Positions 25,765-58,471 of a DNA stretch of 64,000 nt are shown piece by piece. Source of the DNA: Clostridia bacterium (GTDB taxonomy: Bacteria > Bacillota > Clostridia > Oscillospirales > Acutalibacteraceae); the NCBI GenBank assembly GCA_017435385.1, contig JAFSFB010000001.1:1-64000 (forward strand), read 5' to 3'. A model generated the notes under the pieces. It worked only from the letters and a program-made list of their open reading frames with translations. It was not told the DNA's origin and made no database searches. The translations under genes were made by a program, and so were the position numbers. Position 1 is the first letter of the stretch. Every line of letters starts with the position of its first letter.

Positions 25765-26084
25765 TTGGAACGCCTCCTTAAAATTTGGCGGGCTTAGAAC
25801 TGCAAACTTTGTGAAAACTGTCCCGGGTGTTTCAACCCGTCCGATTTAAAAACCGGAAAAACATATTTCCGGGTTGGCTTTCGCTCATTTGCACATGGGT
25901 ATCCCGCAGCAAGGCCGCCCGGGAATGGCAGACCTTCGCAAGGACACAAATCGCCCGGTTTAAAATCGGACATACTCCGCGGAAATTTCCTGCCTCAGAG
26001 GGCAGCCACCTCCCGCATCATCGCATATCATGCATGCAACAGGATGGGTTTTGGGCATAATTTGCCCCTAATCCTTGAGCATGC
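25765..26084 (-). ncRNA. S10 operon 5' leader (about 320 nt, structured)
   Basis: The stretch between the inferred transcription start near 26084 and rpsJ carries several stems on the minus strand: CTGCC/GGCAG (hexamer loop), CCGGAAA/TTTCCGG, and CGGGT/ACCCG with a TGAAAC loop, close to the rpsJ ribosome binding site. A 32-codon frame (25960-26058, starting MPKTHPVACM) has an AGGGG site 7 bp upstream but may be chance. The length and structures suggest a regulatory leader, perhaps bound by a ribosomal protein. I cannot match it to a specific known leader family. Confidence 0.55.
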
Positions 26085-51486: not shown

Positions 51487-52983
51487 TTAATCCTCGCCGG
51501 CTTCCTTTGCCGCCTTGATAACCTCGTCGGTAACCGCTTCGCCGTGTCTGACAACAAGAATGCAGAGAAGGCTGAGGGCAAACATGATCGGGCTGTAAAC
51601 AAACAGCGACATATATGTGCCCGAAAGCATACGGACAATACCGTAAACGATGGGAGAAGCGATCTGAGCCGAGAAGGTTGCGGTATAATAATAACCCGTA
51701 AATGTGCCGACCTTATCGTTACCGCCGATCTCGAGAACAAGGGGAAGAGTATTAACCGTGATAAGCATGTTTGCGAAGCCGCCGAATACAAGAGCAACCC
51801 AGATAAGAGCCATGCTTCTTGTAACAACATAAACGCCGAAAACTGCCATGAAGAGTGCAAGACCGATAAGAATGGTCTTCTTTCTGCCGAGCTTCTTGCC
51901 CATGTAGCCTGCAGGGATTGCGGCAACTGCTGAGCAGACGGCAAAGAGAGTTGTCATGATGGTTGCTTCTGCGGTTGTTTTGCCGAGAACCTCCGCTGCA
52001 AAAAGAGCGAAGAATGTCGTGATAGCGTTTGTGCCGCAGAAGAGGAAGAACAGACCTGCAAGCATGAAGATAAGGCTTGTTCTCTCACTCTTTGAGAGCT
52101 TCTGAGCTTTTCTTGCAGCTTTTTCTGCTTTCTTTGCTTCCTTTTCAGCCTTTGCTCTTGCGGCGGCATCCATAGCCTGATTCTGAGCCGCAACTGCTTC
52201 GAGCTTGCTTGAAGGCTCCTTGACAAAGAAGAGAATGACAAGCATACCGATAACCATAACGATTGCGCCCGTAAGGAAAACATAGGGGAATGCAAGGTTT
52301 TCGTTTTCGGTTGTGAGCTTGACGCCCGTGATAAGAGTATAGATCGCACCGACGATCGTTCCTGCGAACATGCCGATTGCGGAACCGACACCGCCCATGA
52401 GGTTGATGATTGCGTTACCCTCGCTTCGGAGTGCGGGAGGAGTCAGCGCAGGCATGAGAGCAACAACGGGAGCTCTCCAGAGCGACATCGAGAAAACGAA
52501 CAGAATGATGAACAGCATTGTCATCGGAAGAGAACCGCTCAGAGCAATCCACGGAATGACCGCAAAGAGGAATGCCGAAACGGGAGCACCGAAAACAATG
52601 AAGGGGCGGCGCTTGCCGAGCTTTGAATGGCAGCGGTCGGAAAGCTTGCCGAAGGTCGGCTGGAAGATAACGCCGAATATATTATCGAATGTCATGATGA
52701 TACCGATAAAGAGCGGAACGAGAGTAATTCCTCCGCCGACGGTATTGACATCCTGACCCTGAGTTTCCGCAAACTTTGCAAGAACAGGGAACATTTCGTT
52801 AAGCTTGATGCTCCACTGAGTTACGGTTTCGGAAGCATTAAGAAGTCTTTCAAGAATTTTTGTGATGTAGGGATCATAGATTGCCCATGCGATCGAAGAA
52901 GCCATGAAGCCGAAGCCCGTGAGAATCGTTCTCGGGCGGTGAAGCTTACCGTTTTCTCTCGCACAGAAGAAGGTGTTTTCCAT
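51487..52983 (-). CDS. MFS transporter, GPH/SLC45-like
   Basis: A 498-aa carrier of about 12 membrane segments. The DNIFGVIFQPTFGKLSDRCHSKLGKRRPFI region holds the GxxSDR-type loop between TM2 and TM3 with the Arg/Lys pattern (GKRRPFI) shared by sucrose/glycoside-pentoside-hexuronide carriers. GGVGSAIGMFAG and the second-half loop MGKKLGRKKTILIG mark the internal repeat. A charged, alanine-rich cytoplasmic loop (KAEKEAKKAEKAARKAQK, about residues 280-300) separates the halves. A sugar is the likely substrate; which one is unknown. It lies alone, divergent from the ABC operon. Confidence 0.88.
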   Translation of the reverse strand: MENTFFCARENGKLHRPRTILTGFGFMASSIAWAIYDPYITKILERLLNASETVTQWSIKLNEMFPVLAKFAETQGQDVNTVGGGITLVPLFIGIIMTFDNIFGVIFQPTFGKLSDRCHSKLGKRRPFIVFGAPVSAFLFAVIPWIALSGSLPMTMLFIILFVFSMSLWRAPVVALMPALTPPALRSEGNAIINLMGGVGSAIGMFAGTIVGAIYTLITGVKLTTENENLAFPYVFLTGAIVMVIGMLVILFFVKEPSSKLEAVAAQNQAMDAAARAKAEKEAKKAEKAARKAQKLSKSERTSLIFMLAGLFFLFCGTNAITTFFALFAAEVLGKTTAEATIMTTLFAVCSAVAAIPAGYMGKKLGRKKTILIGLALFMAVFGVYVVTRSMALIWVALVFGGFANMLITVNTLPLVLEIGGNDKVGTFTGYYYTATFSAQIASPIVYGIVRMLSGTYMSLFVYSPIMFALSLLCILVVRHGEAVTDEVIKAAKEAGED

Positions 52984-53155: not shown

Positions 53156-53185
53156 TTGACAAACCGCATATTGCGGGGTTATACT
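53156..53185 (+). promoter_or_regulatory. ABC-exporter operon promoter with dyad in the spacer
   Basis: Perfect -35 TTGACA (53156-53161), 18-bp spacer, -10 TATACT (53180-53185). The spacer contains the perfect dyad CCGCA-TAT-TGCGG (53164-53176), which would place a regulator across the promoter. Confidence 0.85.
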
Positions 53186-53219
53186 CTAAAAAGAAATTTA
53201 AAGAAAGGAGGCGGACTCA

Positions 53220-53288
53220 ATGACAAACAGAAATCTCAGAAAACTTACCTGCTCATCAGAAAAAGAGTTGTGTCCGCTTGCCGAATAA
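53220..53288 (+). CDS. Leader peptide of the ABC-exporter operon (22 aa)
   Basis: A 22-codon frame, MTNRNLRKLTCSSEKELCPL followed by AE and a stop, with a strong AAAGGAGG site eight bases upstream. It lies about 30 nt after the inferred transcription start and ends about 25 nt before an intrinsic terminator that itself precedes the first exporter gene. The position and the good ribosome site make it a leader peptide for transcription attenuation. A stem TCCGC/GCGGA (53273-53277, 53293-53297) covers its last codons and stop, so ribosome position there could steer downstream folding. It is too small for any function of its own to be claimed. Confidence 0.7.
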   Translation: MTNRNLRKLTCSSEKELCPLAE

Positions 53289-53312
53289 TTTTGCGGATAT
53301 CTTGCCGTTTCA

Positions 53313-53344
53313 CAGCGCTTCTGATGGCAGAAGTGCTGTTTTTT
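53313..53344 (+). terminator. Attenuator terminator before the ABC exporter genes
   Basis: CAGCGCTTCT (53313-53322) pairs with AGAAGTGCTG (53329-53338), six-base loop, followed by six T residues, only 20 bp before the start codon of the first exporter gene. A terminator in that place makes sense only as a conditional one. Confidence 0.85.
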
Positions 53345-53364: not shown

Positions 53365-55707
53365 ATGAAAAAGGAAAGAAGAAAAAATTCTGCTCATCCG
53401 CAGAAAAACAAGCACCGTTTTCCCGATGCTCTGCTCATGAAGCTCGAAGAAGCGGGGCTCGACACAAAAAACCTGATTTTCTGCTGCTCGGGCGACATGG
53501 ACAACGATGCCTGCTACAGAAATGCGTGGCTCAGCTTCGACGAAAAGGGATTCTATATCGCTTTCGGCACGGAGGAGCTTGTTAAGGTAAAACGGAAAAA
53601 GCATGTTGAAACAAAATATACGGTTGAAAAGATCATATCGATTCCCCTTGAGGATATAGATTCTCTTGAAACGGAACGATACGTTTCAACGGGCAGACTC
53701 GTTGCAGTCAAGGACGGCGAGCAGACAAGCCTTGTCCGCTTCTCGGTCGGCAAGCTCGGTCAGTTTGACAATCTCACGAAAGCATTCAATTCTTTTAAAG
53801 AAAAAGGCGAGGCGGAGATCCCCTCCTCAGCCGAGCCCGAGGAGAAAAAATGTAAGAAGTGCGGCAAGCCCTGCCCCGAAGGAAAGGACTTCTGCAAAAA
53901 ATGCGGAAAGAATTCCGCCGTTGCGATCCGTCTTTTCAAATTTTTCGGCGGATATGTTCCGCAGATCGTTGCCATAATCGCAACCATGCTCCTCGGCTCT
54001 GCGGTTTCGGTTTTTATTCCGCAGATAAGCACCCGTGCGCTCTTTGACGAGGTTCTCGCAAACCCCGACGGTCTGCCCGCAACCGAGCTTCTCAAGGCAT
54101 TGGGAGTTCTTGTTGCTTCGATTTTCGGAGTCAAGCTGCTCAACACTCTGCTGACAGTCATTCAGCAATACCTCACGGGCGGTATAATGCCTATGGTAAT
54201 CTATGACATCAGAGTCAAGATCTTCAAGGCTATGCAGCGTCTTTCCGTCGGTTTTTATTCATCAAAGCAGACGGGCTCTCTGATGGAAAGAGTCGTGAGC
54301 GATTCAAACAATATTTACTGGTTTTTTGTTGACGGTGTTCCGAGTGTTATCATTGACATTGCAACGGTCATCGGCGTTACGGCTCTGATGTTTGCCATGA
54401 GCTGGAAGCTCTCTCTCATCGTTATTCTTGCTTTACCGCTGATTCTCGGAGCCCTTGTCCTCGGTGACAAATTTTTCAGAGGTCTTCACCACAGAAACTG
54501 GCTCTTCGGCGCAAGAGTTTCGGCTATGGTCAGCGACAACATCAACGGACAGCGTGTTATCAAGGCTTTCGCCAAGGAAGACGACGAATATGACCGCTTC
54601 AGCAAGGCAAGTGAGGACCTGATGAATTCGGAAATAAAGCTCACCGTTTCCGAAGCAACTCTTTTCCCGATTCTCGAGGTTTTCATCCTTCTGCTTTCAA
54701 CGGTCGTTCTCGGCGTCGGCGGCGTTCTCGTTGCAAAAGGCGAAATGACCGCAGGCACTCTGCTGACATATATCGTCTATCTCGAAATGCTCAGAGGTCC
54801 GTTCGATTTCCTCTCATGGGTTTCCAACTGGTGGTCGAGATGTGCCGACTCCGCTCAGAGAGTTTTCGAGATCTGCGACGCCGAACCCGATATCGTTGAA
54901 AAAGAAAACGCCGTGAGCTTCGACAGCCTCAGAGGCGATATAGAAATAAACGACCTCGAATTTGAATACGAACCCGCAAGACCCGTTATCCGCAAGCTCA
55001 GCCTTAAAGTCAAGGCAGGCGACATGCTCGGCATCGTCGGCAAAACGGGCGCAGGCAAAACAACGATCGCCAACCTCATCGCCCGTCTTTACGATGCGAA
55101 GGAGGGAAGCGTTAAGATCGACGGAATCGATGTGCGTGACCTCAGACTCACCGAGCTTCGCCGCAACATCGGTCTCGTTTCGCAGGATATCTATCTTTTC
55201 ATCGGCACGATCGCCGACAACATCCGCTACGCAAAGCCCGACGCAACCATGAGCGAAATCATCGCTGCTGCAAAGGCGGCATCCGCCCACGACTTCATCA
55301 TGAAGCTCCCCGACGCTTACGAAACGAGAGTCGGCGCAGGCGGTCAGAAGCTTTCGGGCGGTGAAAGACAGAGGATCTCTATTGCCAGAACGATAATCCA
55401 GAATCCCAAAATTCTGATTCTCGACGAGGCAACCGCCGCCATGGATACGGAAACCGAAAGAAACATCCAGAATTCGCTGACAAAGCTCAAGGCAGGCAGA
55501 ACGACTCTCGCCATAGCCCACAGACTTTCAACGCTCAGAGATTCCGATTATCTCGCAGTCATTGACGACGGAAAGATCATCGAATACGGCACATATCAGG
55601 AGCTTCTCAAGCAGAAGGGCGAATTCTATAAACAGTATAAAATACAAGCGGAAGCGCTTAAAACAATCGGCATCGGCGTTTCCGAAGCCGACACGGAGGA
55701 GGAATAA
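53365..55707 (+). CDS. ABC exporter subunit 1 with PH-like and zinc-ribbon N-terminal extension
   Basis: A 780-aa type IV ABC exporter half. Residues 1-160 are a soluble beta-rich region (WLSFDEKGFYIAFG, ISIPLEDIDSLETERYV, SLVRFSVGKLGQFDNLTKAF) resembling a bacterial PH-like fold. A zinc ribbon follows with Cys 163, 166, 177 and 180. Six membrane helices occupy about 190-480. The ATPase domain has Walker A GKTGAGKTT (559-567), the Q loop VSQD, signature LSGGERQ (663-669), Walker B ILILDEA with catalytic Glu 688, and the switch His 719. Exporters usually start right at TM1, so the extension is unusual. It is the first structural gene of the operon and probably pairs with subunit 2. Confidence 0.93.
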   Translation: MKKERRKNSAHPQKNKHRFPDALLMKLEEAGLDTKNLIFCCSGDMDNDACYRNAWLSFDEKGFYIAFGTEELVKVKRKKHVETKYTVEKIISIPLEDIDSLETERYVSTGRLVAVKDGEQTSLVRFSVGKLGQFDNLTKAFNSFKEKGEAEIPSSAEPEEKKCKKCGKPCPEGKDFCKKCGKNSAVAIRLFKFFGGYVPQIVAIIATMLLGSAVSVFIPQISTRALFDEVLANPDGLPATELLKALGVLVASIFGVKLLNTLLTVIQQYLTGGIMPMVIYDIRVKIFKAMQRLSVGFYSSKQTGSLMERVVSDSNNIYWFFVDGVPSVIIDIATVIGVTALMFAMSWKLSLIVILALPLILGALVLGDKFFRGLHHRNWLFGARVSAMVSDNINGQRVIKAFAKEDDEYDRFSKASEDLMNSEIKLTVSEATLFPILEVFILLLSTVVLGVGGVLVAKGEMTAGTLLTYIVYLEMLRGPFDFLSWVSNWWSRCADSAQRVFEICDAEPDIVEKENAVSFDSLRGDIEINDLEFEYEPARPVIRKLSLKVKAGDMLGIVGKTGAGKTTIANLIARLYDAKEGSVKIDGIDVRDLRLTELRRNIGLVSQDIYLFIGTIADNIRYAKPDATMSEIIAAAKAASAHDFIMKLPDAYETRVGAGGQKLSGGERQRISIARTIIQNPKILILDEATAAMDTETERNIQNSLTKLKAGRTTLAIAHRLSTLRDSDYLAVIDDGKIIEYGTYQELLKQKGEFYKQYKIQAEALKTIGIGVSEADTEEE

Positions 55708-55709
55708 AA

Positions 55710-56225
55710 ATGAGCTCCAACACAATATCTCCCGAAACCCTCAGAACGGAATATGTCACTCCCGAAAGCTGCATATTCTCGCTGAATCCGAGCGGCTTTC
55801 TTGCCGCCGAAATCGACGGAAAGACTTATAAGAGAGTTATTCTCACCCGCTCCCTGCCCCTGACTCTTCCCGATGAATATATCTGCATTTCCGACATCGA
55901 AAAGAACGAGGTCGGCATCATCGAAAAGATTGCGGATTTTCCCGAGGAGCAGCAGGCACTCATCAATTCCGAGCTTTCTCAGCGTTATTATTGCCCCGTT
56001 ATCGAAAAAATTGAGTCGATCAAAGAAAAAATGGGACATTTCTATTTTGATGTTGTTATCGGTGGAACAAAAAAATCCTTTGCGGTCAAGGATATCACCA
56101 AAAGCATCCGCCAGCACGGCGATGCAATCGATGTTACGGACATCGACGGCAACCGTTACAGAATAACGGATTTCGATTCGATCGAAGCAAAAAGCCGCCG
56201 CAAATTAGAGCCGTATCTGTATTAA
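55710..56225 (+). CDS. DUF1854 family protein, ABC-exporter accessory
   Basis: A 171-aa soluble protein. Its features (RVILTRSLPLTLPDEYICISD near residue 43, NEVGIIEKIADFPEEQQALINSEL in the middle, HFYFDVVIGGTKKSFAVKDI, and DVTDIDGNRYRITDFD near the end) are those of DUF1854, which I recall being encoded next to ABC exporters in other bacteria, including genes labelled cyanophycin-associated in proteobacteria. No function is established. The ribosome site GGAGG lies within the last codons of subunit 1, two bases separating the genes, so it is made with the exporter. A likely role is binding the transporter's cytoplasmic extension or handling its cargo; that is inference. Confidence 0.88.
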   Translation: MSSNTISPETLRTEYVTPESCIFSLNPSGFLAAEIDGKTYKRVILTRSLPLTLPDEYICISDIEKNEVGIIEKIADFPEEQQALINSELSQRYYCPVIEKIESIKEKMGHFYFDVVIGGTKKSFAVKDITKSIRQHGDAIDVTDIDGNRYRITDFDSIEAKSRRKLEPYLY

Positions 56226-56290: not shown

Positions 56291-56320
56291 CACCCAAACA
56301 TCCGAAAAGGGGTGAAAATT

Positions 56321-58471
56321 ATGCAAAACAAAGTGCGGTTTGACCTGACCGCCGACGGTAAGCTCTGCAACGGAGAGCTGATTTTTGAAAACGGCTCTCT
56401 GCTTGCCGTCTGCGACGGAAAAACCGTTTTCAGCCATAACCTTGACGGAATCGGAGAACTGCTTCAGCGCTCTTATGTCGGCTGCGGCTGCCTTGAGCTT
56501 GTGCCTGAAAACGCAGGTGCGGAAATGGAGAATTCCGTTCCCGTCTGCCGCTTCTCGCTCTCTCAGGCAAACGAAATCGGCGAATTCTGCAAGGTCGTCA
56601 ACCACTATATAAAAACGGGCGAAGAAACCGAGCTTTCCCGTGAGGACTTCAGAGTCTGCCCCAAATGCGGCAAGCATTATCCCAAGGGAATCGATGTGTG
56701 CCTTTTCTGCGTTGAAAAAAGCTATATAATCAGACGTGCATATTCTCTCGCAAAGCCCTATCTCGGCGGTCTTGCCGTTTCGGGCATCCTTCTTTCGGTC
56801 TGCACGGCTCTCGGAGCGATGCTCCCCGTTCTCAACGCAGAGCTGCTTGACGGCTATCTGACAAACTCCGCTCTTTCAATGAATGAAAAAACAAAGGGCA
56901 TCGTTATTCTCGTGCTTTTAATGGCGTTCACGCAGATTCTCAGCAGAATTTTCTATATCGTTTCCCAGAGAAGAACAAACCGGATCAGCTCCCGCTTTTC
57001 AAACGATATGCGGCTTCTTGTCTATGACAAGGTGCAGAGGCTCTCGCTTTCCTCCATGTCAAAGAAAACCTCGGGCGACCTGATGAAAAGAATAACCAAG
57101 GATACCGAGGTTGTGCGCCGCTTCCTTACGGAGCACGGCATGTATGCCATTGAAAAGCTGATAATGTTCACCGTTATCCTCGTTGTTCTCATCAGCATCA
57201 GCCCTCTGCTGACCTTCCTCGTTTTCGTTCCCGTGCCGCTGGTTATTTTCGCAATACGCAGCTTCTGGAAATTCATTCATCTGCGCTATGAAAAGCAGTG
57301 GAGATGCAATTCAAGGTCAAACTCCGTTCTGCACGATATCGTCAGAGGCATAAGAGTTGTCAAAACCTTCGGAAGCGAAGAAAGAGAGATCAAAAAATTC
57401 GACAGCATCTGTTTGCGGCTCGCCAAGATTTCGGCAAGCAACGAACAGCTCTGGGCACGGGTCTTCCCCTTCCTCTCGTTCTTTATGGGCGTTGGCGAAT
57501 TCCTCGTTCTCTATTTCGGCGGCAGAATGGCAGTCAACGGAACGATAACCGTCGGCGAGCTGCTCGAATTCACGCTCTTCCTTGCCTATATCTATCAGCC
57601 CCTGCGCTGGATCTCGTCGCTTCCGAGAAGACTCGGCGAGGTTGCAACAAGCCTTATCAAGATATTTGAGATCATCGACGAAAAGCAGAGCGTTGAGGAT
57701 ACGGATTCTCCCGTTTCCGCCGATCTTGACGGCGACATTGTTTTCAGCGATGTCCGCTTCGGCTACAAGGCATACGAGCCCGTTCTCAGGGACATCAATC
57801 TCACCGTAAAGCAGGGAGAAATGATCGGTCTTGTCGGTCATTCGGGAGCAGGCAAATCCACGCTCATCAACCTTATCATGCGGCTTTATGACACCGATGC
57901 CGGCAGCATAACCGTCGGCGGCAAGGACATAAAGCAGATGCGCCAGAGCGATTACAGAGAAAAGGTCGGCGTTGTTTTTCAGGAAACCTTCCTCTTTGCT
58001 GGAACGATCTATGACAACATCGCCTATGCCCGACGAAACGCCGAGCCGAGCGAGGTTATTGCGGCGGCAAAGGCGGCAAACGCTCACGAGTTCATCATGA
58101 AGCTTCCCGACGGATATAACACGATCGTCGGCGAAAACGGACATAATCTCTCGGGTGGCGAAAGACAGAGAATTTCAATCGCAAGAGCCGTTCTGAGAAA
58201 CCCCGAAATCCTCATTCTTGACGAGGCGACATCGGCTCTCGATCCCGAAACCGAAAGCCTGATTCAGGAAGCACTCTCCAAGCTTGTCAAGGGCAGAACG
58301 ACCTTTGCAATTGCCCACAGACTCTCGACCCTGCGGAATGCAGACCGACTCGTTGTTATCGAAAAGGGCAGGATCGCCGAGGTCGGCACTCACAGAGAGC
58401 TTCTTCTGCAAAACGGAATCTACGCAAGACTCGTCATGGCTCAGCGCCAGACGGCAAAATTATCAAACTGA
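56321..58471 (+). CDS. ABC exporter subunit 2 with PH-like and zinc-ribbon N-terminal extension
   Basis: A 716-aa ABC exporter half built like subunit 1. Residues 1-110 are beta-rich and end in VCRFSLSQANEIGEFCKVVN, which parallels the RFS...F block of subunit 1; a zinc ribbon follows with Cys 113, 116, 127, 130 (CPKCGKHYPKG, CLFC). The membrane domain spans about 145-440. The ATPase has Walker A GHSGAGKST (506-514), signature LSGGERQ (610-616), Walker B with Glu 635 and the AHRLSTLR switch. Both subunits keep a full catalytic Glu and signature, unlike most heterodimeric exporters, where one site is degenerate. The start is an ATG eight bases from GGGG; a GTG three codons earlier is part of that site. 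Confidence 0.93.
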   Translation: MQNKVRFDLTADGKLCNGELIFENGSLLAVCDGKTVFSHNLDGIGELLQRSYVGCGCLELVPENAGAEMENSVPVCRFSLSQANEIGEFCKVVNHYIKTGEETELSREDFRVCPKCGKHYPKGIDVCLFCVEKSYIIRRAYSLAKPYLGGLAVSGILLSVCTALGAMLPVLNAELLDGYLTNSALSMNEKTKGIVILVLLMAFTQILSRIFYIVSQRRTNRISSRFSNDMRLLVYDKVQRLSLSSMSKKTSGDLMKRITKDTEVVRRFLTEHGMYAIEKLIMFTVILVVLISISPLLTFLVFVPVPLVIFAIRSFWKFIHLRYEKQWRCNSRSNSVLHDIVRGIRVVKTFGSEEREIKKFDSICLRLAKISASNEQLWARVFPFLSFFMGVGEFLVLYFGGRMAVNGTITVGELLEFTLFLAYIYQPLRWISSLPRRLGEVATSLIKIFEIIDEKQSVEDTDSPVSADLDGDIVFSDVRFGYKAYEPVLRDINLTVKQGEMIGLVGHSGAGKSTLINLIMRLYDTDAGSITVGGKDIKQMRQSDYREKVGVVFQETFLFAGTIYDNIAYARRNAEPSEVIAAAKAANAHEFIMKLPDGYNTIVGENGHNLSGGERQRISIARAVLRNPEILILDEATSALDPETESLIQEALSKLVKGRTTFAIAHRLSTLRNADRLVVIEKGRIAEVGTHRELLLQNGIYARLVMAQRQTAKLSN

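Follow-up and report, generated by a model that had tools for sequence, protein, structure and literature searches.

A putative ribosome-sensing transcription attenuator before a DUF1854-associated ABC exporter operon in a Clostridia bacterium

Introduction

In the window analysed here (64,000 nucleotides of contig JAFSFB010000001.1, assembly GCA_017435385.1), an intrinsic terminator sits between a promoter and the first structural gene of an ABC exporter operon. How could the operon be transcribed past it? A first-pass annotation, made from the letters alone, had pointed to a leader peptide and transcription attenuation. The folds and comparisons described below indicate that a ribosome-position-sensing transcription attenuator very probably controls the operon.

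Results

Organisation of the locus and identity of the exporter

The elements of the leader region and the genes around it are listed in Table 1. Behind the leader and terminator the genes follow in the order ABC exporter, DUF1854 protein, ABC exporter. Because the upstream MFS transporter gene lies on the opposite strand, the terminator is not simply the end of that gene. An MFS transporter gene adjoins the exporter operon in genomes G006 and G014 too. The 22-codon frame behind its ribosome site, AAAGGAGG, and the terminator with its T run before the exporter start, both named in the first-pass annotation, were found as described, and the TCCGC and GCGGA sequences do flank the leader stop codon and pair in some partial folds.

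Table 1. Positions in the window of the leader elements, the exporter operon and other features
Feature	Position	Strand	Details
S10-Clostridia ribosomal protein leader	25951-26030	-	Rfam RF03136
MFS transporter	51487-52983	-	Divergent from exporter operon
Promoter	53156-53185	+	TTGACA, 18-nt spacer, TATACT; 11 of 12 consensus matches
Leader ribosome site	53204-53211	+	AAAGGAGG; upstream of leader ATG
Strand A	53204-53221	+	Leader ribosome site and start codon, AAAGGAGGCGGACTCAAT; A:B duplex; minimum-energy fold
Leader ORF	53220-53288	+	ATG, 22 codons, TAA; encodes MTNRNLRKLTCSSEKELCPLAE; homologous ORFs in relatives
Strand B	53252-53281	+	Leader codons ~11-20; pairs with A or C; prefix folds and own-versus-swapped test
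Strand C	53293-53327	+	GCGGA, then terminator 5' arm and loop; antiterminator partner of B
Intrinsic terminator	53312-53344	+	12-bp stem 53312-53339, loop ATGG, T run to 53344
First ABC exporter subunit	53365-55707	+	780 aa; ORF listing; PF00664 and PF00005
DUF1854 protein	55710-56225	+	PF08909, E 1.2e-31
Second ABC exporter subunit	56312-58471	+	ORF listing; PF00664 and PF00005

When searched against Rfam 15, the leader region gave no match above the gathering score of any family, and on that basis identification as a riboswitch, or as any other RNA family in that collection, was rejected. The S10-Clostridia leader is the sole Rfam match in the window. The leader peptide matched nothing in Pfam or NCBIfam, so membership of a known leader-peptide family in those collections was likewise rejected.

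The DUF1854 protein scored 109.7 against PF08909, above the Pfam cut-off of 26.8. For this protein and both exporter subunits the nearest NCBIfam models are labelled 'cyanophycin metabolism-associated', all with scores far below the cut-offs: the subunits reached 526 and 563 against NF052233 (cyanophycin-associated ABC transporter; curated cut-off 880), and the DUF1854 protein reached 69 against NF052234 (DUF1854 partner; curated cut-off 150). With the transporter scores below cut-off and no cyanophycin synthetase above cut-off in this genome, a link to cyanophycin metabolism lacks support. The first subunit carries an extra N-terminal domain and zinc-ribbon-like cysteines, and among solved structures its sequence is matched best by multidrug or lipid exporters, those of the P-glycoprotein type included. 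A full-text search of one paper library found no paper naming DUF1854.

The genus also holds a second group of paralogous DUF1854-ABC loci (L040, L049 and L059-L070), which lack this leader and have DUF1854 frames of ~160-166 aa. More distant DUF1854-ABC operons (L188, L185, L141, L142 and L117) are preceded by short ORFs and terminator-like hairpins with unrelated leader sequences, suggesting repeated origin or replacement of leaders in front of this type of exporter.

Alternative folds of the leader

In the minimum-energy fold of the full-length leader, the last codons of the ORF pair with the leader's own ribosome site. This fold has an energy of -43.2 kcal/mol (shuffled sequences, -33.7 +/- 3.5; z -2.7), and the A:B duplex within it was calculated at -20.4 kcal/mol, against -16 to -25 kcal/mol in all 12 leaders of the comparison set described below.

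When the transcript was folded only as far as the terminator loop, leader codons from ~53252 to 53277 could instead pair with the terminator 5' arm and loop, forming an antiterminator (B:C). The competing helix has three parts: CATCAGA (53254-53260) with TCTGATG (53320-53326), GTTGTG (53267-53272) with CACAGC (53311-53316), and TCCGC (53273-53277) with GCGGA (53293-53297). In these computed folds the antiterminator overlaps both the ORF and the terminator and is mutually exclusive with the latter; its column covariation, given below, is weaker. An alternative fold thus exists, as had been proposed, with a different helix: the suggested pairing of TTGCC (53302-53306) with GGCA is minor, appearing only if the codons before 53258 are left out, and it was rejected as the competing fold in favour of the long antiterminator from codons ~11-20. 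At equilibrium the state with no ribosome is ambiguous, in that some prefixes favour the antiterminator over A:B; the off state in that case would therefore depend on A:B forming first.

Conservation of the leader among relatives

Searches with the first exporter subunit gave matches in named ruminant-gut Clostridia assemblies and, within the window's own genus, in 32 of the 45 genomes. A homologous leader is present at nine of the 30 loci fetched from the genus; at several others there is no leader and the exporter lies directly behind another ORF. Related leaders, with CAVCLF or RAVCPF at the end, occur in three relatives that are more distant. The comparison set therefore comprised 12 leaders, the nine closest from the genus and the three distant ones, mostly from uncultured metagenome assemblies. 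Elsewhere, a loose pattern for the leader ribosome site, searched across the order, found mostly unrelated start sites, and the window's leader had no match in a phage collection.

Ribosome site, start codon, ORF, anti-ribosome-site strand and terminator are kept in all 12, and the homologous leaders are likewise preceded by TTGACA and a TATACT-like box. The distance from the ATG to a conserved TTG is 36, 39 or 48 nt in the nine closest leaders, always a multiple of three; the non-coding spacer from stop codon to stem ranges from 18 to 30 nt across the 12 and follows no such rule. The frame is open in every leader; for independent leaders, the probability of this happening by chance in all 12 would be ~1e-6. 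Codon differences within groups of equal register were 21 synonymous and 102 non-synonymous. There is thus no synonymous bias, and the peptide sequence itself is not what selection keeps. On the question of whether the frame is preserved, start, ribosome site and stop are retained in the 12 leaders.

The terminator, whose free variation together with loss of the frame would have spoken against attenuation, is kept by compensatory changes: across the nine relatives 97% of cells are paired, with a covariation score of 0.49 against 0.29 for shuffled alignments (0 of 500 shuffles as good). For the antiterminator, column covariation is modest and only weakly positive (74% paired against 71% shuffled, 18 of 500; 35-50% in slid registers). 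It is the weakest point of the comparative case, whose weight for this reason falls on the swapping of partners and on folding with a placed ribosome, both given below. Around the TTG codon the leaders pair in a common register, the outer helix varies between subgroups, and the conserved codons coincide with the pairing strands.

In the swap test, each leader's B strand was paired with its own or another leader's terminator arm. For the nine closest leaders the pairing energies with own arms summed to -170.5 kcal/mol, whereas permuted partners gave -137.0 kcal/mol on average (sd 10.4; P = 0.0005), and for all twelve own again beat swapped (P < 1 in 50,000), in permutations that ignore the relatedness of the leaders.

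Folding with a ribosome placed at successive positions gave a graded response. With the ribosome at codons 1-5, the leader captured 0.51-0.98 of the terminator 5' arm in 12 of 12; at codon 7 the captured fraction was 0.39-0.86 in 11 and 0 in the remaining one (L098). It fell to ~0-0.3 in most leaders at codons 9-13, and to 0 in all 12 at the stop codon. Codon-shuffled leaders pair worse than real ones, averaging 26-51% capture with the ribosome at codon 3. In eight of the 12, at most 2% of codon shuffles equalled the real leader's switching; in three (G014, G427 and L100), more than 10% of the shuffled controls switched as well as the real leader. Computation shows the elements, their alternative pairings and the conservation of both.

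Proposed mechanism and alternative explanations

Comparison with relatives supports the attenuation first suggested for this leader, in the following form. With no ribosome on the leader, B would pair with A, the terminator would form and the operon would be off. A ribosome translating freely to the stop codon would cover B, again allowing the terminator to form. A ribosome stalled at about codons 1-7 would cover A and free B, and the resulting B:C antiterminator would permit read-through into the exporter genes. Stalling near the last codons (CPLAE), which the first-pass annotation had singled out, is not inducing in the folding model, which predicts induction for the early stalls instead. 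On the same model, the RNA would be expected to switch in this way in the cell.

The three-strand logic would be identical in a trp- or his-type attenuator, in which repeated codons sense starvation for one amino acid and the exporter handles a metabolite; the distant relationship of the operon to cyanophycin-associated transporters, which handle arginine-rich material, also fits such a scheme. Across the relatives, however, no amino acid is consistently repeated in codons 1-7 (the N-termini compared were MTNRNLR, MTIRKNL, MTIRMNN, MTRINNS, MMTNMSP and MMKNLKI). AGA is the commonest arginine codon in five nearby genes of the window and therefore does not mark a rare-codon pause, and the genome has no cyanophycin synthetase above cut-off. 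We regard amino-acid sensing as unlikely. Lack of conservation in the peptide points instead to sensing of ribosome position.

That same lack of conservation would also suit an incidental ORF in front of a constitutive partial terminator that merely sets a low basal expression, and a 12-bp terminator would by itself lower expression. Such a terminator does not account for the better match of B to its own terminator in two separate leader sets, for the retention of frame, start and stop through in-frame indels, or for the pairing of the last codons to their own ribosome site in 12 of 12 leaders here and 27 of 27 in the wider set below, and it is rather less probable still. Least probable of all, and hardly to be expected, is a functional small protein with the RNA pairing secondary: the ribosome site and ORF are well formed, yet the differences run 21 synonymous to 102 non-synonymous, the peptide has no Pfam or NCBIfam match, and its conserved codons are those in the pairing strands.

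For the ribosome-position-sensing attenuator, the usual stalling agent may be a translation-inhibiting antibiotic or a similar compound; an inducer of this kind is suggested because the leader peptide is non-specific and by analogy with BmrB and VmlR. Ten of the 12 leaders begin Met-Thr, Met-Ser or Met-Met-Thr, and chloramphenicol- and linezolid-type drugs stall ribosomes after such residues. An early stall caused by these drugs is a reasonable first guess, though only a guess. The wider set cannot be used in its support because it was partly collected with patterns requiring ATGAC.

Comparison with known attenuators

The nearest parallels are in Bacillus subtilis. In bmrB, as in the window leader, a small translated ORF is combined with a terminator, an antiterminator and an anti-antiterminator before a two-subunit ABC exporter, bmrCD in that case, and induction of the B. 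subtilis genes needs translation and ribosome-targeting antibiotics (PMC4191407). The coding region of bmrB (nt 60-162) contains all three structures (PMC4191407). Here the terminator follows the stop codon, and the leader's own ribosome site and start serve as the anti-antiterminator strand. The likeness drawn between the leaders is one of design, and the exporter here groups with DUF1854 transporters. In the vmlR leader, too, a ribosome stalled early in the upstream ORF blocks the anti-antiterminator and lets the antiterminator form (PMC9226507). That ORF is three codons long and its target is an ABC-F factor, in contrast to 22 codons and an ABC exporter here, and in vmlR a further hairpin conceals the ribosome site of the gene itself (PMC9226507). 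No such hairpin was found in the window leader. Judged by their descriptions, neither BmrB nor vmlR has last leader codons that hide the leader's own ribosome site.

The mef(E)/mel and erm(K) leaders also combine a leader peptide with a terminator, there before drug-resistance genes, and are set by stalling; they encode a conserved macrolide-stalling peptide of the MTASMRLR type, unlike the unconserved peptide here (PMC4335068). Compared by eye, the leader peptides of the present set do not share the RLR motif. For patAB of Streptococcus pneumoniae, terminator, antiterminator and anti-antiterminator are likewise predicted before a two-subunit ABC exporter; in the parts of that report consulted, no translated leader is described and the regulatory signal is not established (PMC4319486). 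A genome-wide survey has found many attenuators before ABC transporter genes and some that hop between genes. A switch of this kind is therefore not new in itself; what is new, to our knowledge, is the leader with its self-hiding ribosome site, and its gene context.

A wider set of similar leaders

The most interesting aspect of the attenuator is a wider set of similar leaders. A covariance model built from the nine closest leaders scored these at 112-138 bits and detected a second class at ~34-50 bits across the genus and family. Second-class leaders read AAAGGCAGGTGGACAAAATGACA…GTTTTGTCCG…, and their ORFs end in …AVLSVCD / …AVLSAV or SVVLSAMLC; one lies elsewhere in this genome (G000 C6:100943-101073, L239). 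A direct pattern search gave 19 matches in 12 of 300 family genomes, all with spacings that keep a single reading frame; the reversed control gave no match. None of 196 genomes sampled from across the class contained the exact pattern, which had no match in viral contigs either, and a wider-set leader had none in a plasmid collection.

A:B pairing is present in 27 of 27 wider-set leaders, at -15 to -25 kcal/mol. Antitermination by an early ribosome was reproduced in 26 of the 27, in folding from which five leaders were left out for having no hairpin by rule and in which L269 was given an evidently wrong one. Own pairing beat swapped pairing in all of 20,000 permutations.

The genes behind these leaders are mostly GNAT acetyltransferases, followed by histidine phosphatases, with HAD, GrpB, methyltransferase, LytTR response regulator, kinase-like and ABC exporter genes among the rest. 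From ~100 nt upstream through the leader, the sequence is nearly identical before unrelated genes in this genus. Sequence comparison suggests either copying of the control unit or the arrival of different genes behind it. Nearly identical units of ~230 nt stand before unrelated genes at L239 and L241-L246, in one genus, each with ~100 nt upstream bearing AACACTTTTGCA-like boxes, a TTGACA promoter, a MTMMINTMNRRAVLSVCD-type leader and a terminator.

The window leader may represent one branch of a larger, so far undescribed family of ribosome-sensing units, each made up of a promoter, a leader ORF that masks its own ribosome site with its last codons, an antiterminator and a terminator. Such units would stand before many unrelated genes in one clostridial family, apparently moving as a module, and would jointly form a stall-induced stress regulon. 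We give this reading about the same weight as its contrary.

Discussion

With the attenuator proposed here, the regulation of a DUF1854-associated exporter can be modelled in concrete, testable terms. The wider set points to a stall-responsive switch shared by many resistance-like genes in uncultured Clostridia of the ruminant gut. If translation inhibitors are the inducers, these leaders could reveal the genes that such bacteria deploy against natural antibiotics.
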